Source: Duganella sp. Root1480D1 (GTDB lineage: Bacteria; Pseudomonadota; Gammaproteobacteria; Burkholderiales; Burkholderiaceae_D). From it: 64,000 nt of DNA. Location: positions 388,349 through 452,348 of the forward strand of contig NZ_LMFZ01000023.1 in NCBI RefSeq assembly GCF_001427305.1, in the 5' to 3' direction. Every line of letters begins with the position of its first letter. Position 1 is the stretch's first letter. Below are positions 48,262-64,000 of this stretch, piece after piece. Made by a program: the position numbers and the translations under genes. The notes under the pieces were generated by a model. That model worked only from the letters and a program-made list of their open reading frames with translations, had not been told where the DNA came from and ran no database searches.

Positions 48262-49487
48262 TGGAGATGTCGAAGCGAGCAAGTGCCAGCGCCGCTGCAG
48301 CGCTGCTGGCAGCATGCGCCCTGCTGACGCCAGCCGGTACCGGCATGGCCAAGTCCATTCATCCGGCCGAAGCCCCGCGCGCGCGCAAGGATGCGGAAAT
48401 CATGCTGCTCGAGATTTACCAGGACCTGCGCGCCAGCCAGCTTCAGGAAGCAATGGCCAAGGCCGATGCCCTGGTGCAGGCCTACCCGAATTTCCGCGTT
48501 GGCCACCTGATCCGCGGCGACCTGCTGCTGATGCACACCAAGCCGGTGGGCCAGCTCGGCGCCGGCGCCAGCGGCCCGGCCGACAAGCTGAAAGACTTGC
48601 GCGATGAAGCGCGCGTGCGCCTGCAAACCCTGGTGGCGCGTCCCGGCCCGGAGCTGGCGCCGCGCTCCGTACTACAGCTTCGCGCCGACATGCGCCATGT
48701 GCTGGTGGTCGACGCCACCCAATCGCGCCTGTACGTTTACCAGCACAACAACGGCGAGCTGAAACTGGTGACCGATTACTACGTCAGCCAGGGCAAGCTG
48801 GGCGTCGACAAGTTCCGCGAAGGCGACCAGAAAACCCCGCTCGGCGTGTACTACATTACCGGCCGCGTATCCGGCCCCAAGCTGCCCGACTTTTACGGCG
48901 CCAGCGCACTGCGCATCAATTACCCCAACGAGTGGGACCGGCTGAATGGCCGCAGCGGCGGCGGCATCTTCCTGCATGGCACGCCAGCCGATAATTACAG
49001 TCGCCCGCCCCTCGCCTCCGATGGCTGCGTGGTGCTGACCAATGACGATTTGCGCAAGCTGGAAGGCACGGTCGACATCGGCAAGACCCCGGTGGTGATT
49101 GCCGACCACCAGGAATTCATCAGCAAGGCCAAATGGGATAACGAACGCTTCACCGCGAACCGCCTGGTCGAATCCTGGCGCGCCGACCTGGTCAGCGCCG
49201 ACAGCAAGCGCCTGCTGAAGAACTATTCGGGCAAGTTCAAGTCGGCCAATGGCGAAGACCTGAAGACCTGGTATGAGAAGGACATGCGCCCCTTGGCCAG
49301 CGTGGCTGGACTCAGCGTGTCGCTCAGCGAAGTGACCATCTTCCGCTACCCAAGCCGCGACGACATGCTGGTCAGCACCTTTACCCTCGAGTCGAAGATC
49401 GGCAAGAACCGCTCCACCCAGCGCAAGCGCCAATACTGGGCGCGTGAAGGCAGCGAGTGGAAGATCATCTTCGAAAGCATGATCTGA
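48261..49487 (+). CDS. L,D-transpeptidase (YkuD family)
   Basis: A 408-residue periplasmic cross-linking or protein-anchoring enzyme. A signal peptide (to about 35) and a helical region precede the YkuD catalytic domain (about 145-285), with active-site His in IFLHGTPADN and nucleophile Cys in LASDGCVVL. The C-terminal 110 residues form an NTF2-like domain like that of the upstream TPR protein (FTLESKIGKNRSTQRKRQYW). The ATG at 48261 overlaps the previous stop in TGATG. Confidence 0.88.
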   Translation: MEMSKRASASAAAALLAACALLTPAGTGMAKSIHPAEAPRARKDAEIMLLEIYQDLRASQLQEAMAKADALVQAYPNFRVGHLIRGDLLLMHTKPVGQLGAGASGPADKLKDLRDEARVRLQTLVARPGPELAPRSVLQLRADMRHVLVVDATQSRLYVYQHNNGELKLVTDYYVSQGKLGVDKFREGDQKTPLGVYYITGRVSGPKLPDFYGASALRINYPNEWDRLNGRSGGGIFLHGTPADNYSRPPLASDGCVVLTNDDLRKLEGTVDIGKTPVVIADHQEFISKAKWDNERFTANRLVESWRADLVSADSKRLLKNYSGKFKSANGEDLKTWYEKDMRPLASVAGLSVSLSEVTIFRYPSRDDMLVSTFTLESKIGKNRSTQRKRQYWAREGSEWKIIFESMI

Positions 49488-50038
49488 AGATCCCCTTGCG
49501 CACGCAACTTCTCAGTTGCGCCGCACTGGCGGGCATCGCCATTGCCATCCTGCTGCTCCGGCAGGCGCCGCTCGCCGCATTGCTGCAGGCCGGCTGGCCG
49601 TGGTGGCAGCAAGGCCTGGCGGGCATTGCCATCGGGCTGCTTGCGGGCGGCACTTCAGCCCTGACCACGCTGCGCAAGCCAGATTCCGAAGCCGTGCAGC
49701 GCACTGCCGCCAGCTACGCGCGGCTCGACCTCAGTGGCTGGAATCCCTTATGGATATCGCTCGCCGCCGGCGTATCGGAAGAACTGCTGTTCCGTGCCGC
49801 GCTGCAGCCGCTGGCCGGGATCTGGGGCGCCAGCCTGCTGTTCCTGCTGGTGCACGCCGGCGCCTACGACTTCCGCCGCTTCGACCGGGCGGCCCTGTGG
49901 CAAGCCAGCGGCGTGTTCGGCATGGGCGTGCTGCTCGGCTTCGCCTTCGAGTACGCCGGCTTGCTATGCGTGATGATCGCCCATGCCATCGTCGACATCA
50001 TTGGCCTGTGCCTGGTTCGCCGGCTGGCCATGCGTTAA
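49457..50038 (+). CDS. CPBP-family intramembrane glutamic protease
   Basis: A 193-residue membrane protease of the CAAX/Abi (CPBP) group with about five hydrophobic segments. The catalytic motifs are present in order: SEELLFRAALQP (EExxxR), FLLVHAGAYDF (His) and MIAHAIVDI (HxxxD). The only upstream in-frame starts are rare codons: the GTG at 49457 lies inside the transpeptidase gene (31-base overlap), and a TTG a few codons later is possible. Last gene of the TPR-transpeptidase operon. The substrate is unknown. Confidence 0.78.
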   Translation: MEDHLRKHDLKIPLRTQLLSCAALAGIAIAILLLRQAPLAALLQAGWPWWQQGLAGIAIGLLAGGTSALTTLRKPDSEAVQRTAASYARLDLSGWNPLWISLAAGVSEELLFRAALQPLAGIWGASLLFLLVHAGAYDFRRFDRAALWQASGVFGMGVLLGFAFEYAGLLCVMIAHAIVDIIGLCLVRRLAMR

Positions 50039-54466: not shown

Positions 54467-55204
54467 TCAGAAGCTGCGCGCCAGCCCGAGAACCAGTTTG
54501 CTGTGCATCCTGCTGGACGGGGAGCTGGCGCGGCTGCCATAGCCGCCGCTGGCGCCAGCGCCCTGGTTGCGCAAACGGACCGTATCCAGGGAGAGCTGCA
54601 TTTGCCAGCCTTCGAAAGCTGTCCCGATGCCTAAACGCCCTTCCGCGCGGTTGCTTTCCGCATTCCCGGGCGCGGCCAGGTAGCCGCCGCGCCAGAAGTA
54701 GCGCCAGGCAGGCCCCAGCGATCCGCCGCCATTGAGTTCAGCATATAGCGTGCGCTCGCGGAAGCCGAGGTAGTCGGGGGAATAATGCAGGCGCGCCGAA
54801 TAGTTTTCAAAGGACAGGCCGGCAAACACTTCGCGGAAGTTCCAGTCCGGTGCGCCGTGGAAGGCATAGGCCGAAACGCCCGCTTCCCATGAGAGGCCGG
54901 ATTGCAGGCGCTGGGCGTACCCGCCATAACCCAGCCACTGTGCGTTGCGGTGCGATTGCGGCGCCAGCTGGCCGCTGACCACCTGGCCACCGGCAAACCA
55001 GCCAGCGGCGCCGTCGATATCGAGCGAGAGCCGCGCCGCCGGCTTGCCTGAACTGAGGGAGATGCCGCGGTACATGTAGTCCGAGACGATGCCGGCGCTG
55101 CCGCTCACTTGTGCCTGGGCACTCGCTGCAAAGATGCAGGCCAGCCCTGTCAGGGCGAACGCGCCAGGTTGTCGGTGGAAGGGTTGGGGCATGCGCAGGA
55201 ACAT
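54467..55204 (-). CDS. TorF-family putative porin
   Basis: A 245-residue outer-membrane barrel of the TorF/Gcw_chp type. After a signal peptide (to about 31, AQA-QV) comes GSAGIVSDYMYRGISLSSGKPA, the family signature, then amphipathic strands ending in KLVLGLARSF with a terminal Phe typical of outer-membrane barrels. It overlaps the subtilase gene and is the last gene of the sigma operon. ATG 55192 is an alternative start. The solute is unknown. Confidence 0.8.
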   Translation of the reverse strand: MFLRMPQPFHRQPGAFALTGLACIFAASAQAQVSGSAGIVSDYMYRGISLSSGKPAARLSLDIDGAAGWFAGGQVVSGQLAPQSHRNAQWLGYGGYAQRLQSGLSWEAGVSAYAFHGAPDWNFREVFAGLSFENYSARLHYSPDYLGFRERTLYAELNGGGSLGPAWRYFWRGGYLAAPGNAESNRAEGRLGIGTAFEGWQMQLSLDTVRLRNQGAGASGGYGSRASSPSSRMHSKLVLGLARSF

Positions 55205-56436
55205 TTACCGGTAATGCGCATGATGGTGGCGCAAAGATCTATCCCCGTCAACGGTGCGGGGCCGCTGCTGCGCACGATGCCTTCATGGAGGCGCTCGCCG
55301 TTCAGCTGCGGCTTCAGTTCGCCGAGCAGGGCAAGCATGCCGCTGACATGTGCGGCCGCGTAGGACGAGCCGGAGACCATGCCCCAGCGGGCGCCAGGCA
55401 TGGTGGTCGGCACGTCGCGCCCTGGTGCAAGCAGGCATTGGGCATTATGGCGCGGCGCGTCGTCGGCAGCGACAGCGAACACGCCCGGGCTGTTGGCCGG
55501 AAAGCCGCCGTCGCCGCGCCCAGGGTCGATTGCGCCCACCACGCGGACGCCGCGCGCCTGCGCCACGCCGACCAGTTGCTGCAGCAGGCGATCCTGGGGG
55601 CCGGACAGGCTCATGTTGATCACTTGCGCATTGTGCAGCAAGGCGTAGTTGAGGGCTTTGGCCAGCGTGAAGCTGTTGCAGCGCGTGGCGCTGTCGGCTT
55701 GCCAGCAGGCGCGCAGTGCCATCAGGCGAGCTTCCGGCGCAATGCCGGCGATGCCGATGCCGTTGTCGGCGCGCGCGGCGATGACGCCCGCCACCGCCGT
55801 GCCATGTTCTTCGGCTATATAGGCCTGGCCGTCGACGAAATTTTCCTGCACCGCCACCTGGCCCGCCAGGTCGGGATGGCCGGCTTCGACGCCGCTGTCG
55901 ATCACCGCCACCAGCACATTGCGGCCGGTGGTGGACTTGCGCACCTGTTCCAGTTGCCATGGCGCTGCCGCCGGCTGCACTCGGTACAACGGGTCGCCCG
56001 GGCTGCCGGACGTGCCGGCAGCCCCGCCCTGCGCGCTGAATTCCTGGATGGCCTGCGCCCAGGCGACGCGGCTGTCACGCGTCAGCGCGGCCAGCACCGC
56101 AGCCGGATCGCGGCCAGCGGCAAGCCGCATGCGATAGCAATCGACGTTCAGCGCCGGCATCGGCCAGTCTTCCATCATTTGCAAGCCATGCTCGCGCGCC
56201 AGTGCCGCGGCAATGCGTTGGCGCGCCTGGCGGCCGGCATCGTCGCGATAACTGGCCCCGCTGTAGCCGTCGGCCCGGAAATGGGGCGCCGGCAGGTGCA
56301 GCATGACGAGGATGTCCGCACCGGCTGCGGTGGCGGGAATGGCGGCCGCCGGCGTGGTTTGCGCCCCTTGTGCGGCGCCAGCCAGTCCGCAACACGCCCA
56401 TAGCATGCAGGCGATCAATGCCATCCAACCCTTCAC
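55150..56436 (-). CDS. S8 (subtilase) serine peptidase
   Basis: A 428-residue exported protease. A signal peptide (to about 24) and a pro-region (40-135, with DPAAVLAALTRDSRVAWAQA) precede the catalytic domain, with Asp180 in VAVIDSGVE, His211 in HGTAVAG and Ser358 in SGSSYAAAHVSG. The usual oxyanion-hole Asn (AAGN) is replaced by Asp in GAIDPG. The C-terminus ends with a Cys cluster. GTG 56436 overlaps the anti-sigma stop in GTGA; the longer 610-residue frame is rejected. Its position behind a sigma/anti-sigma pair suggests a regulatory or maturation role. Confidence 0.82.
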   Translation of the reverse strand: MKGWMALIACMLWACCGLAGAAQGAQTTPAAAIPATAAGADILVMLHLPAPHFRADGYSGASYRDDAGRQARQRIAAALAREHGLQMMEDWPMPALNVDCYRMRLAAGRDPAAVLAALTRDSRVAWAQAIQEFSAQGGAAGTSGSPGDPLYRVQPAAAPWQLEQVRKSTTGRNVLVAVIDSGVEAGHPDLAGQVAVQENFVDGQAYIAEEHGTAVAGVIAARADNGIGIAGIAPEARLMALRACWQADSATRCNSFTLAKALNYALLHNAQVINMSLSGPQDRLLQQLVGVAQARGVRVVGAIDPGRGDGGFPANSPGVFAVAADDAPRHNAQCLLAPGRDVPTTMPGARWGMVSGSSYAAAHVSGMLALLGELKPQLNGERLHEGIVRSSGPAPLTGIDLCATIMRITGKCSCACPNPSTDNLARSP

Positions 56437-57113
56437 TGCTTGCCCTCCGCTGCCAGTGCCTCGGCCAACGCAACTGCGGGATCGGAGCGCAGGGCCGCCA
56501 ACACCGCGCTGCGCTGCGCGGGTTCGACATCGAGCAGCCAGGCGCCGGTGGCGGTCGGTCCGCCAACCAGGTGTGCGCCGGATGTTTTCAGCAGGCGCTG
56601 CACGTCCTGCACACTGGCATCGGGCTTGAACACCACGAGCACGTCGGGCGTGGCTGCGGGCGCGCTGCCGAGCGCCTTGTACACAGGCGGTGCGCCGGCC
56701 GGCAGCATATTGGCTGCCAGTACCACGATCGCCAATGCCTGTGCCGCGATGGCCCAGCCCTTCCAGTCGCCGGGCCCGCGCAGCCAGTCCAGCAAGGCAC
56801 TGGCAAAGCGGGACGGCGCCTGCACAACGGGGGATGGCTGGGCGGCGGGCTGGGCCAAAGGGGGCGGCGCCTCGTCCAGCCGCGACATCAGGCGCGCCAG
56901 GGCGCGTTCCTGGTCCAATGCGGCCGGCAACGGGGCTGCCGTTTCGATCAGGCGGCGCTGCCAGGCCAGTTCGGCGCGGCATTCGGGGCAGTCGCGCAAA
57001 TGCCGCTGCACGCGTCCAGCCTCGCCGTCGGCCAGCGAGCCGGCGGCATACCAGGGCAGCAACGCCTGCATGTCCTGGTGTTCCGCAATGTTCGATGGGT
57101 CTTGCATGTTCAT
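56433..57113 (-). CDS. Zinc-finger anti-sigma factor with a protease-prodomain-like periplasmic region
   Basis: A 226-residue membrane anti-sigma factor. The cytoplasmic ZAS motif H38-xxx-C42-xx-C45 would hold the ECF sigma factor, and one membrane helix lies at 119-137. The periplasmic part (155-220) reads LVVFKPDASVQDVQRLL and AVLAALRSDPAVALAEA, matching the pro-region of the subtilase encoded next. That similarity suggests a bait or inhibitor domain for the protease. The start overlaps the sigma stop (ATGA, 57110-57113). Confidence 0.85.
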   Translation of the reverse strand: MNMQDPSNIAEHQDMQALLPWYAAGSLADGEAGRVQRHLRDCPECRAELAWQRRLIETAAPLPAALDQERALARLMSRLDEAPPPLAQPAAQPSPVVQAPSRFASALLDWLRGPGDWKGWAIAAQALAIVVLAANMLPAGAPPVYKALGSAPAATPDVLVVFKPDASVQDVQRLLKTSGAHLVGGPTATGAWLLDVEPAQRSAVLAALRSDPAVALAEALAAEGKQ

Positions 57114-57685
57114 CGTATTTCTTCCAAATGGTCGGACAACATGTCCTTCAACCGCAGGCGTGCATGGAACATGCGCGTCTTCACGGTATTTACCGGGCAG
57201 CCGATGGTTTCGGCGATCTCCTGGTAAGCCATGCCGTGATAATAAGTCAGGCAGACCACGGCGCGCTGCTCCAGCGGCAAGGCGTCCAGCGCGCGGCCGA
57301 CCCCGCGCTGCAACTGGAGCGCAGCCAGGGCGTGCTCGGGTTCGTGCCATTCTTCACCGGCGACATCCGGCGCTTCCTCCAACGGTTCGTCCAGCCCGCG
57401 CAGGGCTTTCAGGGCCTGCCGGTAGGCGATGCCGAAGATCCAGGTCGACACCTTGCTGCTGCCGTCGTAGCTGGAGGCCTTCTGCCACACCACCAGCATG
57501 GTGTCGTTGACGATTTCCTCCAGCAGCGGCACGTTGCGCGTCATGCGGTCGAGAAAACGGGCCAGGCGCGGAAAGTAGGCGCGATACAGGGACTGGAAGG
57601 CCAGGCGATCGCCGCCCCCTACCAGCCGTATCAGCTCACCGTCGTCGACATCGCCTGTCACTCCCGTCCTCCTGCCAAACCGCAT
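57110..57685 (-). CDS. ECF-family RNA polymerase sigma factor
   Basis: A 191-residue extracytoplasmic-function sigma factor. Region 2 spans 30-100 (FQSLYRAYFPRLARFL and VSTWIFGIAYRQALKALR) and region 4 spans 125-185 (LPLEQRAVVCLTYYHGMAYQEIAETI with the HTH). AAAAGGAG precedes the ATG. It is the first gene of the operon sigma-anti-sigma-subtilase-TorF. The upstream gap carries a candidate ECF promoter on each strand, so it probably activates itself and the divergent redox operon. Confidence 0.93.
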   Translation of the reverse strand: MRFGRRTGVTGDVDDGELIRLVGGGDRLAFQSLYRAYFPRLARFLDRMTRNVPLLEEIVNDTMLVVWQKASSYDGSSKVSTWIFGIAYRQALKALRGLDEPLEEAPDVAGEEWHEPEHALAALQLQRGVGRALDALPLEQRAVVCLTYYHGMAYQEIAETIGCPVNTVKTRMFHARLRLKDMLSDHLEEIR

Positions 57686-57710
57686 GCACTTTTCTCCTTT
57701 TTACGCCTGT

Positions 57711-57738
57711 GAATACCCAGCCGGAGGAGAAAGGTTCA
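57711..57738 (-). promoter_or_regulatory. Candidate ECF promoter of the sigma operon
   Basis: On the minus strand TGAACC (plus 57733-57738) and GTATTC (plus 57711-57716) are 16 bases apart, 25 bases upstream of the sigma ATG. The same pattern with the same spacing appears on the plus strand at 57772-57799. AAC in the -35 box is typical of ECF promoters. Confidence 0.55.
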
Positions 57739-57771
57739 AAGAAACTTCAAAAATATTTTCCCACCTGATTT

Positions 57772-57799
57772 TGAACCATTTCCGCCTGCGCCGGTATTG
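57772..57799 (+). promoter_or_regulatory. Candidate ECF promoter of the MrtJ-cytochrome operon
   Basis: TGAACC (57772-57777) and GTATTG (57794-57799) are 16 bases apart, the mirror of the site at 57711-57738. If used, transcription starts near 57806, which excludes a TTG start at 57797 for the next gene. Confidence 0.55.
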
Positions 57800-57832
57800 A
57801 CCGTAACAACATTGACAGAATGTTCAGTACCT

Positions 57833-58168
57833 GTGTTCGCTCAAACTGCCGTCTGCGGCCCCGCCCTGCTCTCGCCCGACCTGGCTGCCGTGCTGCGTCT
57901 GCTGGTGCTGGCGCCTTTGCTGGAGGAATGGGTGGTGCGCGCCGGGCTGCATGCCTGGCTGCTGCCGCGCGTTAGCGCCTGGGTGGCGGTGCCGGCCAGT
58001 GCGGCGGCCTTCAGCGCGCTGCACCTGGGCAGCGGGCCGCTGGCGGCAGCGCTGGTGTTCGGCCCGGGCCTGGCGTTCGGCCTGGCTTACCAGCGCTGGC
58101 GCGACTGGCGGCTGTGCGCCCTGCTGCATGGCGCATGCAATGCCTGGGCCCTGTCGATGTGTGCTTGA
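57833..58168 (+). CDS. JDVT-CTERM-type glutamic intramembrane protease (MrtJ-like)
   Basis: A small CPBP-family membrane protease, about 111 residues from GTG 57833 (TTG 57812 and TTG 57797 are alternatives; no in-frame ATG exists). Catalytic motifs are LLEEWVVRAG (EExxxR), FSALHLG (His) and LLHGACNAW (His with Asn). Its size and its position directly before a protein with a JDVT-CTERM-like segment fit the protease proposed to process JDVT-CTERM sorting signals. It is the first gene of the plus-strand operon behind the ECF-type promoter. Specificity is inferred from context. Confidence 0.65.
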   Translation: MFAQTAVCGPALLSPDLAAVLRLLVLAPLLEEWVVRAGLHAWLLPRVSAWVAVPASAAAFSALHLGSGPLAAALVFGPGLAFGLAYQRWRDWRLCALLHGACNAWALSMCA

Positions 58169-58194
58169 ACAACTCACCAACCACGGGAGCAGCA

Positions 58195-60780
58195 ATGAAA
58201 CATCACCGACCTTGGGCTTTGCTGGCATTGGGCCTGGCGCAGGCTGCGCATTTCGCGCAGGCTGCCGATGCCCTGAACGGCAAGAGCCTTTACCTGAACG
58301 GCCCCACGTCCGGCGGCACCAGTTGCGCCGCCTGCCACGGCGCCTCGCCGGCCAATAACGTCAACAACGTCCTGGCGGCAGCCAATAATCCGTCAGTGAT
58401 CAGCTCCGCTTTCGCCGCCAACAAGGGCGGCATGGGCTCCCTCTACAACGGCAAGTTCAGCTCGGCGGAGATCGCCGACATGGCGGCCTTCATCGGCAAT
58501 CCGAACGTGACCGCGGCGCCGGCGGCGTCCGTGGCCCCTTCCACACTGTCCTTCGGCGGCGCCACCGTCGGCCAGGACAGCGGGGCGCTGGCCACCACGC
58601 TGTCCAACACCGGCTCGGCGGCGCTGAACATCGGCAGTATCGCCGTCGGCGGCAGCAATGGCGGCGACTTCCGGGTCACAGGCGGCAGCTGCGCCTCCGG
58701 CTCATCCCTGGCGGCCGGCGCCAACTGCACCGTGCAACTGGTGTTCCATCCCACAGCCAGCGGCACCCGCAGCGGAGCGCTGACCATCAACCATAACGCC
58801 ACCGGCGGCTCCAGCAGCGTGACGCTGTCCGGCACCGGCAATGCCGTGGCCCAGGCCACGCTGTCGCTGTCGGCCAGCGCGCTGGATTTTGGCGCACTGC
58901 TGACCAATGCCCCGTCGCAGCGCACCCTGACCCTGACCAACAGCGGCCAGGCGGCCCTGAACTTTTCTTCGATCAGCGTAAGCGGCGCCCAGGCCAGCTA
59001 CTTCACCCTGGGCGGCAGCTGCGCGACCGGCACAGCAGTGGCGGCCGGCGCCAACTGCACCGTTGTGGTGCAAGCCTTGCCGACTGCGGCAGGTGCCTTC
59101 AGCGCCAGCCTGAATCTCGCATCGAACGCCAGCAATGCGAACGTCGCGGTCGGTCTTTCCGGCAATGCCGCTGCCCAGGCACCGGCCATCAGCGCCAACC
59201 CGAGCGCTGTTGCCTTCGGCCTGTGGACCATCGGCGCCGCGCCGCTCGCGCAGCAAGTCACGCTGAATAACCGCGGCAATGTGGCGCTGGCCTTCAGCAG
59301 CATTGCCGTCAGCGGCGCACAGGGCATCTCGCTCGCCGGCGGCGGCGATTGCGGCAGCAGCCTGGCCGTCGGCGCGAGCTGCACGGTCCCACTGGCATTC
59401 GCTCCGGCTGCGGCAGGCACCGTGACCGGCACCTTGCTGGTACGCTCCAATGCCGCCGACCTGTCGGTAGCGGTCACCGGTTCCGGCACCACGTCGCCGG
59501 TGGCGCGTCCTGCATTGAGCAACCCTGGCCCCGTGGCCCTCGCCGATACCCAGGTGGGGCAGCAATCGGCCGCGCAACGCAATACATTCTCCAATAGCGG
59601 CACCGGAGCCTTGAAGATTGCCTCGCTGGTGCTGGGCGGCAGCAATCCGGGCGACTTTGCGCTGGCCGGCAGCTGCGCTGCCGATGCCACGCTGAGTCCA
59701 GGCGCAAGCTGCACGATTGACGCCACCTTCAAGCCAACCGCGGCCGGCGCGCGCAATGCCGACATGCTGCTGGTCACCGATGGCGGCGCCCAGTTCAGCG
59801 TGCGGTTGAACGGCAATGCCAGCGCGGTCCCGGCACCGGTGCCTGCCCTTGGCGTGAGCCCGCAAGCCTTCGACTATGGCAATGCCGCGGCAGGCGGCAC
59901 GGGTTTAATCAAGCGCTTCGTGCTGTCGAATACCGGCGCCGCAGCGCTGGTGCTGAACGGCGTAAGCTTCAGCGGCCCGTTCGCTGTGGCGAGCGGCGAA
60001 AGCAACGCCTGCGGCCCCTTCCCACTGACACTGCAAGCCGGCGCTTCCTGCGAACTGCCGGTGCGCTTTAGCCCGACTGCGGCTGGCAGCGCCACCGGCA
60101 GCGCGACCCTGCAGGCAAACGGCGCAAACTGGCAGGTCGCCCTCAGCGGCCAGGGCGCGACCGATGCGGCGCCTGCCGGCGCGGCACAGAACCGTGGCGG
60201 TGGCGGTTGCTCCTCGATCAGCGGCGGTAATGACCCGATGCTGGCCGTGCTCGTGGTCCTGGCTGCAGGTGTGCTGCTGTGGCGCCGCCGCCAGGCGCAG
60301 GTGCTGGCGGCAGCGGCCGCGCTGGCAGTGGCGGGCCAGGCCATGGCGCTGGAACCGGGCCAGGCCGCGCCTGCCTTTTCGTTGAGCGGGCCAAGCGGCA
60401 CGGTCAAGCTGGAACACTACCAGGGCAAGCTGGTGTACATCGATTTCTGGGCCTCGTGGTGCGGCCCATGCCGCCAATCCTTCCCATGGATGAACGAGAT
60501 GCAGGCCCGCTACGGCGGACAGGGATTGCAGGTGATCGGCATCAATGTCGATGCCAAGACCGACGATGCGCGCAACTTCCTCAACGCGACGCCAGCCAGC
60601 TTCGCGATCGCGTTCGACCCGAACGGCACGGCGCCGCGTAATTATGGCGTCAAGGGCATGCCAAGCAGCGTGCTGATTGGCCCGGACGGGAAAGTGCTGT
60701 ATGAGCACAGCGGCTTCCGGCCGGCCGACCGCACCGTGCTGGAGGCGCGCATCAAGACTGCGCTGGGAGTACGTCAATGA
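58195..60780 (+). CDS. Cytochrome c / choice-of-anchor D / JDVT-CTERM / TlpA-thioredoxin fusion
   Basis: An 861-residue exported protein. After a signal peptide (to about 24) comes a cytochrome c motif CAACH (44-48), then five ~100-residue immunoglobulin-like choice-of-anchor D repeats (about 115-660), each with one Cys pair 9-12 residues apart. The JDVT-CTERM-like segment follows: GGGGC (668-672), DPM (680), hydrophobic stretch, RRR (697-699). After it, from Val703, a second signal-like stretch leads to a TlpA/ResA thioredoxin domain with WCGPC (Cys756, Cys759). GGGAG lies 6 bases before the ATG. The thioredoxin could be a separate product from GTG 60301, where two genes have merged. Confidence 0.82.
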   Translation: MKHHRPWALLALGLAQAAHFAQAADALNGKSLYLNGPTSGGTSCAACHGASPANNVNNVLAAANNPSVISSAFAANKGGMGSLYNGKFSSAEIADMAAFIGNPNVTAAPAASVAPSTLSFGGATVGQDSGALATTLSNTGSAALNIGSIAVGGSNGGDFRVTGGSCASGSSLAAGANCTVQLVFHPTASGTRSGALTINHNATGGSSSVTLSGTGNAVAQATLSLSASALDFGALLTNAPSQRTLTLTNSGQAALNFSSISVSGAQASYFTLGGSCATGTAVAAGANCTVVVQALPTAAGAFSASLNLASNASNANVAVGLSGNAAAQAPAISANPSAVAFGLWTIGAAPLAQQVTLNNRGNVALAFSSIAVSGAQGISLAGGGDCGSSLAVGASCTVPLAFAPAAAGTVTGTLLVRSNAADLSVAVTGSGTTSPVARPALSNPGPVALADTQVGQQSAAQRNTFSNSGTGALKIASLVLGGSNPGDFALAGSCAADATLSPGASCTIDATFKPTAAGARNADMLLVTDGGAQFSVRLNGNASAVPAPVPALGVSPQAFDYGNAAAGGTGLIKRFVLSNTGAAALVLNGVSFSGPFAVASGESNACGPFPLTLQAGASCELPVRFSPTAAGSATGSATLQANGANWQVALSGQGATDAAPAGAAQNRGGGGCSSISGGNDPMLAVLVVLAAGVLLWRRRQAQVLAAAAALAVAGQAMALEPGQAAPAFSLSGPSGTVKLEHYQGKLVYIDFWASWCGPCRQSFPWMNEMQARYGGQGLQVIGINVDAKTDDARNFLNATPASFAIAFDPNGTAPRNYGVKGMPSSVLIGPDGKVLYEHSGFRPADRTVLEARIKTALGVRQ

Positions 60781-60995
60781 GCGCGCGCCTGTTGATGCTC
60801 TGCGCCGTGCTGGCCGGCCTGTCCGGCTGCGCCCTGAAGCCGGTGCAGCCTTGGGAGAAAGGCGAACTGGCACGCACCGACATGCTGATGCAAGGCGACG
60901 GCCTGGAGACACGCTTCAATGAACATATCTACGCCAGCAAGGAAGCGGCTTCCGGCGGCAGCGCCGTGGGTGGCGGCGGCTGCGGCTGCAACTGA
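60777..60995 (+). CDS. DUF4266 lipoprotein
   Basis: A 72-residue lipoprotein. The lipobox LSGC places lipidation at Cys18; KPVQPWEKGELARTDM and a Gly/Cys tail (GGGGCGCN) are typical DUF4266 features. Starts in an ATGA overlap with the thioredoxin-containing ORF and is followed 11 bases later by DUF3570. DUF4266, DUF3570, a TlpA-like protein and ApbE form a recurring neighbourhood in proteobacteria as I know it; the molecular role is unassigned. The terminal CGC might bind metal. Confidence 0.82.
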   Translation: MSARLLMLCAVLAGLSGCALKPVQPWEKGELARTDMLMQGDGLETRFNEHIYASKEAASGGSAVGGGGCGCN

Positions 60996-61006
60996 CAAGG
61001 ATTACC

Positions 61007-62152
61007 ATGGATAACAAACCACAGAACGGCATGCCGGTCGGCCAGGCCTTGCTGGCGGCAGCGATGCTGCTGCCGGGGATGGGCAGCGTGCATGCCGAAA
61101 CGCCTCCGGAACGGGGCAGTATCGGTGTCAAGTACCTTTATTACAAGGAAGACCAGCCTGGCCTGGACCGGGTCCGCGTGCATGCTCCGGCTGTGTCGGT
61201 GCTGGCGCCGATCGCCGGCGAATGGACGGTGGCCGCCAGCGCGACGGTGGACGACGTATCGGGCGCCTCGCCGCGCTACCACACCGCGGTCTCCGGCGCT
61301 TCGCACATGGACGACTTGCGCAAGGCTGGCGATGTGACTGTCACGCGCTACCTGCCGCGCGGTACCGTCAGCGTATCGGCGGCCTATTCGACCGAGCATG
61401 ACTACGTGTCACGCGCGCTGTCGCTGCAGACTTCCCTTGCCAGCGAGGACAAGAACACCACCTGGAACTTCGGCCTTGGCGGCTCGGACGACAGCATCAA
61501 TCCGGTCAACCATATCGTGCAGGATGCCGGACGCCAGACCGTCAGCGTGCTGGCGGGGGTGACGCGGGTACTGACGCCGGTCGATATCGGCCAGCTTACG
61601 CTGACCCATACGCAAGGGCATGGCTATTACTCCGACCCGTACAAGCTGGCCGACAACCGGCCCGATTCGCGGCGGCAGGACACCGCCCTGCTGCAGTGGA
61701 ACCACCGTTTCGTCGAAATGCGGGCGACCAGCAGGCTCAGTTATCGCTACTACCGCGACAGCTACGGCATCAGCGCCCATACGCTGGCTGCGGAATGGGT
61801 ACAGGGACTGGGCGAGGGCTGGACAGTCACGCCTGCGGTGCGACTGTATACGCAGCGCGCGGCAGACTTCTATTTCGACCCAGTGTACGACAGCCAGCTT
61901 GGCGCGCCCTTCCCGCCCGGTTATGTGTTCGGCAGTTCGCAAGCCAGTTCCGCCGACCAGCGCCTGTCCGGCTTTGGCGCGCTCACGCTGGGCGTGAAGC
62001 TGGCGAAACAGCTCAACCGGGACTGGGCCGTCGACTTCAAGGTCGAGCGCTACGAACAGCGCGGTGCCTGGCGCCTGTTTGGCAACGGCAGCCAGGGGCT
62101 GGCGCCGATGCGGGCGGTCAGCCTGCAGCTTGGAGTGACGCGGCAGTGGTGA
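61007..62152 (+). CDS. DUF3570 outer-membrane barrel protein
   Basis: A 381-residue exported beta-barrel. A signal peptide (cleavage near VHA-ET, residue 30) is followed by alternating amphipathic strands to the terminal Trp (VTRQW). Residues 82-88 (DDVSGAS) and 94-99 (AVSGAS) match the D/S-x-x-S/T-G-A-S/T pattern that ApbE flavinylates in proteins such as NqrC and RnfG, and the apbE gene overlaps its stop. Whether this barrel or another protein carries FMN is untested. CAAGGA lies upstream. Confidence 0.8.
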   Translation: MDNKPQNGMPVGQALLAAAMLLPGMGSVHAETPPERGSIGVKYLYYKEDQPGLDRVRVHAPAVSVLAPIAGEWTVAASATVDDVSGASPRYHTAVSGASHMDDLRKAGDVTVTRYLPRGTVSVSAAYSTEHDYVSRALSLQTSLASEDKNTTWNFGLGGSDDSINPVNHIVQDAGRQTVSVLAGVTRVLTPVDIGQLTLTHTQGHGYYSDPYKLADNRPDSRRQDTALLQWNHRFVEMRATSRLSYRYYRDSYGISAHTLAAEWVQGLGEGWTVTPAVRLYTQRAADFYFDPVYDSQLGAPFPPGYVFGSSQASSADQRLSGFGALTLGVKLAKQLNRDWAVDFKVERYEQRGAWRLFGNGSQGLAPMRAVSLQLGVTRQW

Positions 62153-63036
62153 GCCCGATTTACACGATCGACTTCCAGGCGATGGCCAGCCGCTGCGAGA
62201 TCCGCCTGGCCGCCGCTTCGGGCGCCGAAGCGCGGGCGCTGGCAGATCCCGCGCTGGAGGAAGTGCGGCGGATCGAAGCCAAGTACTCGCGCTATCGCGC
62301 CGACAGCATTGTGAGCCGGATCAATGCGGCGGCCGGCATTTCCGCGGTCGACTGCGATGACGAGACCCTGGCGCTGCTGGACTATGCCGATGCCGTGTAT
62401 CGCAGCAGCGGCGGACGCTTCGACATCACCTCCGGCGTGCTGCGCAAGGTGTGGGACTTCCGCATGGGTACCGCGCCTTCGCCGCGGTCGCTGGAGCGGC
62501 TGCTGCCGCTGGTGGGCTGGCCGCAGGTGCGGCGGGAAGGCGGCAGCGTGATGCTTTCGCACGCCGGCATGGAACTGGATTTCGGTGGCTTTGGCAAAGA
62601 GTATGCGGTCGACCGCGCGGCGGAGATCCTGACCGCGCAAGGTGTGCAGCACGGCTACGTGAACCTGGGGGGCGATATGCGTTTCCTGGGGCCGCGGCCC
62701 GATGGCGGGGAATGGAGCATCGGCATCCAGCATCCGCGCGACACGCAGGCCACGGTTGCCAGCGTGCCTTTCAGCCGGGGAGCACTGGCGACCAGCGGCG
62801 ATTATGAGCGCTATTTCGAGGCGGATGGGCGGCGTTATTGCCACATCCTCGATCCGCGCAATGGCATGCCGGTGTCGTATTGGCGCTCGGTGAGCGTGGT
62901 GTCGCCGATGGCCATTGCCGCCGGCAGTTGCAGTACGACGGCCATGCTGCTGGAGCGCGACGGACTGGATTTCCTGGAGCAGTCTGGCTTGTCCTTCCTG
63001 GCTATCGACCAGGAAGGGCGAATTTTTCGGAGATGA
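62149..63036 (+). CDS. apbE: FAD:protein FMN transferase ApbE
   Basis: A 295-residue enzyme that transfers FMN from FAD to Ser/Thr of exported target proteins. Family motifs include MASRCEIRL, the EAKYSRYRADSIVSRIN region, DFGGFGKEYAVDRAAEIL, VNLGGDMRFLG, SGDYERYFEADGRRYCHILDPRNGMP and SVVSPMAIAAGSCSTTAMLL near the Mg2+ site. No obvious signal peptide is visible from the GTG at 62149, which overlaps the DUF3570 stop in GTGA; the longer frame is rejected. Many ApbE are lipoproteins, so how this one reaches the periplasm is unclear. Confidence 0.9.
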   Translation: MSPIYTIDFQAMASRCEIRLAAASGAEARALADPALEEVRRIEAKYSRYRADSIVSRINAAAGISAVDCDDETLALLDYADAVYRSSGGRFDITSGVLRKVWDFRMGTAPSPRSLERLLPLVGWPQVRREGGSVMLSHAGMELDFGGFGKEYAVDRAAEILTAQGVQHGYVNLGGDMRFLGPRPDGGEWSIGIQHPRDTQATVASVPFSRGALATSGDYERYFEADGRRYCHILDPRNGMPVSYWRSVSVVSPMAIAAGSCSTTAMLLERDGLDFLEQSGLSFLAIDQEGRIFRR

Positions 63037-64000
63037 ATATGAAGTTCCTGATTCAATGGCTGGCGGCGCTGCTGCTGGCTTCTGTGATGGGCGGGCCCGC
63101 CCTGGCCGATGATTTCCTGGCGCCGGAACGGGCGTTTGACTTGCGTGCGGAATTGCGGGCGGATGGGCAGCTAGCGCTGCACTGGACGATCGCACCCGAG
63201 TATCATCTTTATCGCGATCGCATTGTCTTGCGCAGCGATGGAGCGGTGTTGCCGGTGCTCCTGCCAAGCGGGAAGCGCAAGTATGACGAGAATTTTGGCA
63301 AGGAGATGGAGACTTATGCCGGGGAGCTGGCGTTGCAGTTGCCTTGGCAAGGGCGCGCGGGCGCTTCCCTGGTTGTCGGGTACCAGGGGTGTGCGGATGC
63401 GGGCCTGTGCTATCCGCCGGTTGAGCGACGCTACAGCATCGACCCGGCGCATCCCGGCCTGCTGGTAGCGCTGCCCGACGCTTCGGCCGCACAGTCCGCG
63501 ACGGCCGGCAGCGCGGCGGCGACCGGCGGCGCTTCGGCCGCGCCGGCGGTGGTGGCGGAGGATGACACGTCGCTGGCGCAGCGCACGCTGCAAAGCGGCA
63601 GCGCGTGGCGCATCGGCGCAGCGTTCCTCGTGTTCGGGCTGCTGCTGTCGTTCACCCCTTGCGTGCTGCCGATGGTACCCATCCTGTCCTCCATCATCGT
63701 CGGCGAAGCGCAGGTGACGCGCAAGCGCGGGCTGTTGCTGGCGGCCGCGTACAGCCTGGGCATGGCCCTGGTCTATACCTCGCTTGGCGTTGCAGCGGGC
63801 CTGGCGGGCGAAGGCCTGGCCGGTGCGCTGCAGAAGCCGTGGGTCCTGGTCACCTTCGGCGCGCTGCTGGTCGCGCTGGCCCTGTCGATGTTCGACGTCT
63901 ACCAGCTCCAGTTGCCAAGCGCCCTGCAGACCCGCCTGAGCAACGCAAGCGGCAATCTGTCCGGCGGCCGCCTGGCAGCAGTATTCACCATGGGGGCAGT
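63033..64000 (+). CDS. dsbD: Thiol:disulfide interchange protein DsbD (partial, cut by window end)
   Basis: The first ~322 residues of DsbD, which carries reducing power from cytosolic thioredoxin across the inner membrane to periplasmic thioredoxin-like proteins. A signal peptide (to about 26) precedes the N-terminal immunoglobulin-like domain with the reactive Cys pair in GYQGCADAGLCYPP. Then the membrane domain begins with FTPCVLPMVPIL. The C-terminal thioredoxin domain lies beyond 64000. The ATG at 63033 overlaps the apbE stop; ATG 63039 is nearly equivalent. Placement after apbE links thiol reduction to the Cys-rich fusion protein. Confidence 0.9.
   Translation, partial: MNMKFLIQWLAALLLASVMGGPALADDFLAPERAFDLRAELRADGQLALHWTIAPEYHLYRDRIVLRSDGAVLPVLLPSGKRKYDENFGKEMETYAGELALQLPWQGRAGASLVVGYQGCADAGLCYPPVERRYSIDPAHPGLLVALPDASAAQSATAGSAAATGGASAAPAVVAEDDTSLAQRTLQSGSAWRIGAAFLVFGLLLSFTPCVLPMVPILSSIIVGEAQVTRKRGLLLAAAYSLGMALVYTSLGVAAGLAGEGLAGALQKPWVLVTFGALLVALALSMFDVYQLQLPSALQTRLSNASGNLSGGRLAAVFTMGA

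Follow-up and report, generated by a model that had tools for sequence, protein, structure and literature searches.

The last part of a 64,000-nucleotide stretch of the soil bacterium Duganella sp. Root1480D1 (hereafter the window), positions 54467–64000, contains ten open reading frames (ORFs) in two divergent runs. On balance, and with restrained confidence, we read them as a DsbD/flavinylation-type electron relay of the envelope that is under a sigma switch and is extended by a surface-sorted cytochrome. The leftward run comprises an extracytoplasmic function (ECF) sigma factor, an anti-sigma factor, a subtilase and a TorF-family porin; the rightward run comprises the sorting protease MrtJ, an 861-residue heme/tag/redoxin protein, a DUF4266 protein, a DUF3570 protein, ApbE and DsbD. 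Within each run, neighbouring genes overlap or almost do. The original prediction, made from the letters of the window, had described eleven genes as a candidate undescribed envelope redox system with its own sigma switch and sorting protease. Every protein family that it named was recovered in profile searches; the count is ten ORFs, with the thioredoxin, the heme domain and the tag sharing a single one, and DsbD is present in the stretch but not whole, as the window end cuts the gene.

The redox half of this system is already known. Clusters of DsbD, ApbE, DUF3570, DUF4266 and a thioredoxin-like protein were reported together with an electron-transfer model in which DsbD passes electrons to the thioredoxin-like protein and an extension through DUF3570 and DUF4266 is proposed (Meheust et al., 2021; PMC8238504). 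In the available part of that paper, a Chlorobium DUF3570 protein was flavinylated on co-expression with its ApbE in E. coli, and the function of DUF3570/DUF4266 flavinylation systems was termed uncertain. Likewise, MrtJ and a single JDVT-CTERM target are known as a two-gene neighbourhood (Haft, 2024, as cited in the accessible portion of PMC11980579). With both constituents on record, the word undescribed no longer applies to them; what is new is the link of an MrtJ-sorted cytochrome, a DsbD-linked flavinylation cluster and sigma control and, in one clade, a polyprotein-like precursor. We found no publication joining MrtJ, the flavin/thiol cluster and the sigma module in a search outside which most subscription journals lay. 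The operon shares with the DsbD-type clusters of PMC8238504, as far as the available text describes them, the same five components, the same proposed thiol/flavin path, the two [S/T]GA[S/T] motifs in DUF3570 and the CXC end of DUF4266. It differs from them in two respects. The first is the redoxin, which here is TlpA/ResA-like (PF08534/PF00578) and not of PF13899; the latter profile does not match the operon's redoxin and matches the C-terminus of DsbD instead. The second is the surroundings: neither MrtJ nor JDVT-CTERM appears in PMC8238504, and a sigma module and a sorted cytochrome are not mentioned with those clusters in the part of it that was available.

The operon is conserved among relatives of the host. 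In a sample of 392 genomes of the host's family, MrtJ scored above the cut-off in 63 and DUF4266 in 100. The 64 MrtJ loci considered here are those of the 63 genomes and that of G298 (70.5 bits, slightly below the cut-off), and in 58 of them DUF4266 lies on the same strand 2687–3005 bases downstream of MrtJ. No DUF4266 was found in the six other MrtJ genomes (G115, G017, G024, G232, G373 and G173); at two of their loci (L079 and L080, the others being L076–L078 and L060) a cytD-like match lies about 3.5 kb upstream of MrtJ. The 58 neighbourhoods run from MrtJ through the tagged cytochrome, the redoxin, DUF4266, DUF3570 and ApbE to DsbD. Chance adjacency of the genes was rejected, as the order recurs in related genomes. 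The MrtJ motifs EExxxR and HxxxN are kept in all 58 operons, and a full-length DsbD lies downstream in every one of them, compared with 1 of the 17 MrtJ-less DUF4266 loci checked. ApbE belongs to 50 of the 58 operons, and ApbE, DUF3570, DUF4266, the thioredoxin-like protein and DsbD occur all together in 50. A DUF3570 tree of 75 rows, for which the program warned of long branches, splits the MrtJ-linked rows and G363 from the 16 others by one branch (94/97).

The sigma module is a unit of its own, found wherever the MrtJ operon occurs in the sample and also without the MrtJ operon. A profile built from 13 anti-sigma proteins detected relatives in 110 of the 392 genomes; seven with weak or partial matches were removed, among them G348 (E = 2e-17), which has DUF4266 and no MrtJ operon, and 103 were counted. 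The anti-sigma factor is present in 58/58 MrtJ-operon genomes versus 45 of the remaining 334 (Fisher p = 2.7e-41, with no correction for kinship), and DUF4266 without MrtJ shows no tie to it (9/42 genomes). All four genes of the module, for the ECF sigma factor, anti-sigma factor, subtilase and TorF, are complete in 57 of the 58 MrtJ-operon genomes, and all four stand at each of 20 anti-sigma loci examined, of which 4 have a DUF4266 operon in the stretch and 16 have none. At 28 of the 58 loci the sigma gene and the MrtJ operon diverge directly from each other, with all four module genes at 27; at the 28th, G362, the module is cut by the contig end. The 30 other MrtJ genomes have the module at a distant site, and all 30 keep its gene order on a single strand. 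A genome with neither MrtJ nor the cytochrome, G363, keeps the sigma module, the promoter-like motif described below and a stand-alone redoxin with a signal-peptide-like start; therefore, neither the sigma module nor the thiol/flavin part needs MrtJ to persist.

Both halves carry a common promoter-like motif. In 58/58 MrtJ genomes, GAACC-N15-GGTATTNAC lies upstream of both the sigma gene and the MrtJ operon, and where the runs are apart, in 30 genomes, it stands at both promoters. In the window, two copies, one per strand, lie between the divergent runs (TTTGAACC-N15-GGTATT(C/G)AC). Before the sigma gene, the scan found the motif in 57 MrtJ genomes and G363 (58/58 cases), and G358 also carries it; before the MrtJ operon, it was found by scan in 57 of 58 genomes and by reading in the 58th, G104, where the MrtJ match began too early for the scan. 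At the MrtJ motif, the spacer is 14 bases long in ten genomes, all from a single genus (g19). The scan was written after the motif had been seen and its weights were set by eye; therefore, the scores are descriptive and the controls are the evidence. Shuffled windows gave the motif in 1 of 2900 cases and random windows in 30 of 3240, 29 of these 30 lying near an MrtJ or ECF start. A third control consisted of 21 MrtJ-less DUF4266 operons, including second copies from G177, G248, G376 and G303, which own the sigma module and the MrtJ type of operon as well. The scan found the motif in one of these operons, or in two with the site in G085, which lies upstream of the cytochrome gene and beyond the 450-base window before the redoxin; both operons sit beside a sigma module. 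In the 6.6 Mb host genome, only two sites occur at ≤1 mismatch, namely the two divergent promoters; at ≤3 mismatches there are 28 sites versus 28 for the reversed control. Directly ahead of GAACC, both promoters have an A in 17 of the 19 genomes of the window's genus in which the runs are unlinked, which we do not count as independent evidence because those genomes are nearly all of one clade. In G065, the DUF4266 genes share the strand of the sigma genes and come after TorF, and thus no second promoter is expected there.

Owing to the co-occurrence and the common promoter motif, both halves look like one regulon in this lineage, with the sigma module also occurring alone; the same motif before the sigma gene and the target operon would be consistent with control by the ECF sigma factor of its own promoter. 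This agrees with the original prediction that the halves belong together, which it had proposed to refute by independent halves in the neighbourhoods of relatives: those neighbourhoods yielded a tie, but a one-sided one, as the anti-sigma factor stands alone in 45 of 334 genomes. The opposing view is that a general envelope-stress sigma module and a flavin/thiol operon are independent, separately controlled units which happen to be neighbours in Duganella. The 45 genomes just mentioned and the non-adjacent module in 30 of the 58 MrtJ genomes would fit such independence. However, the halves have the motif in common even when apart, no MrtJ operon was found in a genome without the anti-sigma factor, and the two promoters are the only good motif sites in the host genome, so that we consider independent units very improbable.

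The 861-residue precursor combines a cytochrome, a sorting tag and a redoxin in one chain. It begins with a signal peptide, a monoheme c domain (CAACH) and five choice-of-anchor-D immunoglobulin (Ig)-like domains, which lead to the JDVT tag; the tag shows all expected parts, with a Cys (GGGGC), a transmembrane helix and an Arg cluster (RRR), and is internal (residues 667–700 of 861) instead of standing at the C-terminus of the protein. It is followed by a second hydrophobic segment ending in AMA before LE, and by the redoxin with WCGPC. CxxCH occurs exactly once, and the tag pattern GG.GC or GAGGC occurs, in 58/58 tagged proteins. In 46 of the 58 operons the tagged chain ends at most 70 residues from the tag and the redoxin has a gene of its own; in the other 12, including that of the window, a single ORF continues past RRR and reaches the redoxin by way of a second hydrophobic stretch and an AxA-like border. 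This border is followed by LE, AD or AE in 12/12 fused proteins (LE in ten), and the residues behind it, LExGxxAPxF or near, resemble those behind the signal peptides of the 11 stand-alone redoxins examined. In the DUF3570 tree the fused rows group together in a single clade (100/97), whose only other member is G363; a single fusion and a later split would give this pattern. Fusion as a sequencing or frame error was rejected, as 12 of 58 operons in a single clade share it; it is also found at 9 of 28 named-record loci, some of which are possibly the same genomes as in the sample. Among these 28 records, the nearest by DUF3570 are Duganella sp. CF458 and Root336D2 (92–93% identity).

The fused precursor is probably cut twice. 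By the myxosortase model (PMC11980579, in its accessible portion), MrtJ would cut at the tag Cys; we suggest that signal peptidase would cut at the AxA border. Alternatively, and with a smaller yet real likelihood, the precursor is not cut twice: either the redoxin remains membrane-bound, held by the helix of the tag and the one behind it, or it is also produced from an internal start. Fusion is limited to 12 of 58 operons, so that a double cut is no general requirement of the system, and in-frame GTG, TTG or ATG codons are present in the linker of the junctions read, both of which suit this alternative. At the 11 junctions evaluated (all of the 12 except L046), however, no ribosome-binding-like sequence was found at a fitting distance before the in-frame linker starts, and independent translation of the redoxin therefore looks unlikely. 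Furthermore, in G104 the W of WRRR is separated by 28 codons from the first in-frame start, which falls immediately ahead of the AxA border and too late for a signal peptide, and the AxA-like border with its LE, AD or AE is kept in all 12 fused proteins.

Three known sorting systems invite comparison. The MrtJ/JDVT-CTERM pair, as given in the accessible portion of PMC11980579, has the same catalytic motifs and tag parts as found here; unlike that two-gene arrangement, the pair here heads a redox operon, and in 12 of 58 cases the tag is internal with the redoxin after it. Myxosortase MrtX with its MYXO-CTERM proteins in Myxococcus (Guo, Haft and Wall, 2025; PMC11980579) likewise has an intramembrane protease, a tag Cys that is needed and surface anchoring, and it is the model for the cut, but it belongs to another subfamily and host, and the same portion of the paper gives 35 tagged proteins, whereas the Duganella genome has one JDVT-CTERM protein above the cut-off. 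The family midcut-by-XrtH (NF033207), by its name a mid-cut sorted protein, matches one Ig-like stretch of the precursor weakly (E = 0.0074); again by name it belongs to an exosortase system, and the match reaches 16.3 bits against a curated cut-off of 45.

The constant monoheme c protein is new relative to the published DUF3570/DUF4266 electron-path proposal. DUF3570 has two SGAS motifs in the window and two SGA[ST] motifs in 58/58 MrtJ-linked proteins; DUF4266 ends in GGCGCN here, with CxC in 58/58 and a lipobox pattern in 46/58. An adjacent monoheme c protein was also found at 8 of the 21 MrtJ-less DUF4266 loci (L130–L133, L071, L112, L107 and L110), where it is lipoprotein-like or secreted; seven of the eight have a lipobox-like N-terminus and no C-terminal tag. 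The gene filter used for this survey (G+C at third positions >0.62) dropped a cytochrome of G085 and maybe others, and a spurious frame at L074 was left out of the count. With two anchoring solutions for one kind of cytochrome, a lipid-anchored and possibly surface-held heme appears as a recurring optional part. Four genomes have a second DUF4266/DUF3570/ApbE operon (L072, L073, L074 and L114) without MrtJ, motif or DsbD, the DUF3570 of which has a single [ST]GA[ST] motif. The host genome has two further DsbD_N genes (G000:C47:338228 and G000:C49:224676), and the operon's DsbD is an extra copy.

The composition of the sigma module would fit a proteolytic switch. The ECF protein has sigma regions 2 and 4, and the anti-sigma factor has the zf-HC2 motif HxxxCxxC in 29/29 sequences. 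Behind its hydrophobic segment, the anti-sigma factor ends in about 80 residues; in 7 of 13 members these match PF22148, the profile of a subtilase prodomain (Fervidolysin_NPro-like), with a best E of 7.6e-5. The subtilase keeps the triad D/H/S in 28/28 sequences, and the position that we take to be that of the oxyanion Asn is Asp in 28/28. Three Cys positions tested are invariant, and a CxCxC tail is present in the 12 rows examined. The subtilase may thus be slow, redox-controlled or altered in function, and we infer that it forms a sensing pair with the prodomain-like anti-sigma end. The arrangement resembles ECF54 (cited in the accessible part of PMC8999054), an ECF sigma factor with a nearby subtilase gene; unlike ECF54 as described there, an anti-sigma factor with a prodomain-like end is present here.

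From these features a sequence of steps may be proposed. The ECF sigma factor, as the motif suggests, would act at the GAACC-N15-GGTATTNAC promoter and turn on its own operon (sigma factor, anti-sigma factor, subtilase and TorF porin) and the MrtJ operon. The signal would be sensed by the periplasmic subtilase together with the prodomain-like anti-sigma end, where cleavage or unbinding would release the sigma factor. MrtJ would then cleave the precursor at the GGGGC tag, giving a rod that is anchored through the Cys and carries a single heme c at the opposite end, and in fused precursors the second signal-peptide-like segment would also be cut, leaving the redoxin free in the periplasm. ApbE is predicted to attach flavin mononucleotide (FMN) to both DUF3570 SGAS motifs. 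Electrons would pass from cytosolic thioredoxin through DsbD, the redoxin, the DUF4266 CGC thiols, the DUF3570 flavins and the heme of the sorted protein to an outside acceptor. A more specific picture is tentative: a switched surface conduit in which DsbD thiol electrons feed a twice-flavinylated DUF3570 and then an Ig-stalk monoheme cytochrome, in which a CAAX-type protease and signal peptidase cut one clade's polyprotein into stalk cytochrome and periplasmic reductant, and in which the anti-sigma prodomain serves as bait for the subtilase.

Several observations weigh against the relay, and against the switch proposed for it. Outside the family, MrtJ adjoins DUF4266 in none of 41 MrtJ genomes, only four of which own DUF4266; in one genome, G648, the two genes lie about 9.4 kb apart on opposite strands, and the anti-sigma profile matched 2 of the 41. 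Because the link is unseen outside the family, the union of MrtJ with the redox genes is lineage-specific. In 45 genomes there is an anti-sigma factor but no MrtJ operon; therefore, the dependence is one-sided and the module must have another role there. ApbE is missing from 8 of the 58 operons, in all eight cases with an ApbE elsewhere in the genome, and no ApbE signal peptide was seen by eye at any of 67 ApbE-bearing loci, which is hard to reconcile with an exported DUF3570 being flavinylated in the periplasm. As DUF3570 seems to be exported, either it would be flavinylated before export or ApbE would get to the periplasm another way. No neighbouring monoheme c gene was found at 13 of the 21 MrtJ-less DUF4266 loci with a filter that may miss some. 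As to the switch, the window's own anti-sigma factor gave no PF22148 match, so that the prodomain reading rests on the 7 matching members of the 13, and no match emerged when the profiles of the subtilase and the anti-sigma end were compared by hhalign. Finally, the order of electron transfer and the purpose of the system are our deductions, and the heme may be a sensor or structural.

Two other purposes have to be weighed against the electron relay. A thiol-repair or oxidant-defence role is a serious rival, if a rather unlikely one: DsbD and the redoxin would act on surface proteins, reducing their disulfides or other groups that have become oxidised, with flavin and heme as sensors or oxidant scavengers. 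Non-cytosolic thioredoxin-like proteins often act in protein maturation and repair, according to the available part of PMC8238504, and the conserved subtilase Cys residues, including the CxCxC tail, together with the Cys/His zinc-finger motif of the anti-sigma factor, fit a redox-stress input. Nevertheless, a lone repair path leaves the constant two flavin sites and the tagged monoheme cytochrome (58/58) unexplained. We regard as less probable still a helper of metal uptake, in which Fe(III) or Cu(II) would be reduced outside the outer membrane with TorF as the pore. Meheust et al. note that a VIT1 iron transporter accompanies 25 clusters of this kind (PMC8238504, available part), but no known metal transporter is among the ten genes here, the neighbourhoods of relatives not having been searched for one.

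The coordinates of all features are given in Table 1. The ORF listed for MrtJ begins within the promoter motif, and its true start is probably the in-frame TTG at 57812 or GTG at 57833. Just beyond the window, a carbonic anhydrase gene (PF00194; L005:10447-11193) overlaps the end of DsbD; carbonic anhydrase matches were found at four related loci, immediately behind DsbD in three. A second CPBP/Rce1-like protease gene (PF02517) is located at 49457–50038 of the window, outside the MrtJ locus.

Table 1. Genes, motifs and protein segments at positions 54467–64000 of the window, with the profile matches on which their assignment is based
Feature	Position	Strand	Evidence
TorF-family putative porin, last gene of sigma operon	54467..55204	-	TIGR02001 58.8 bits, cut-off 47.15; Gcw_chp PF09694
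Subtilase, Peptidase_S8	55150..56436	-	PF00082 E 2.8e-30
Anti-sigma factor: zf-HC2 domain, hydrophobic segment, C-terminal end	56433..57113	-	profile search; PF13490 in 13/13 relatives
ECF sigma factor	57110..57685	-	PF04542 and PF08281 above cut-off; TIGR02937
Promoter-like motif, sigma operon: TTTGAACC-N15-GGTATTCAC	57709..57740	-	
Promoter-like motif, MrtJ operon: TTTGAACC-N15-GGTATTGAC	57770..57801	+	
MrtJ, glutamic intramembrane sorting protease (ORF)	57797..58168	+	NF033192 81.6 bits, curated cut-off 75
861-residue heme/tag/redoxin precursor	58195..60780	+	profile searches and sequence reading
JDVT-CTERM tag, internal	60193..60294	+	NF033191 48 bits, cut-off 27; Cys codon 60208; RRR from 60283
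Internal signal-peptide-like segment ending AMA, then LEPG	60295..60348	+	
DUF4266 small lipoprotein-like protein, C-terminal CGC	60777..60995	+	PF14086 74.4 bits
DUF3570 protein, two SGAS motifs (predicted flavinylation sites)	61007..62152	+	PF12094 208.9 bits
ApbE flavin transferase	62146..63036	+	PF02424 259.2 bits
DsbD, first part; ends about 900 bases beyond window	63033..64000	+	NF001419 579.6 bits, complete as L005:8582-10450

The locus ties two poorly understood things, DUF3570/DUF4266 flavinylation and MrtJ/JDVT-CTERM sorting, to each other and to a regulator. The defined promoter motif and the small apparent regulon make the system testable, and the fused precursor offers a natural test of whether a CAAX-type sorting protease can cut in the middle of a chain.

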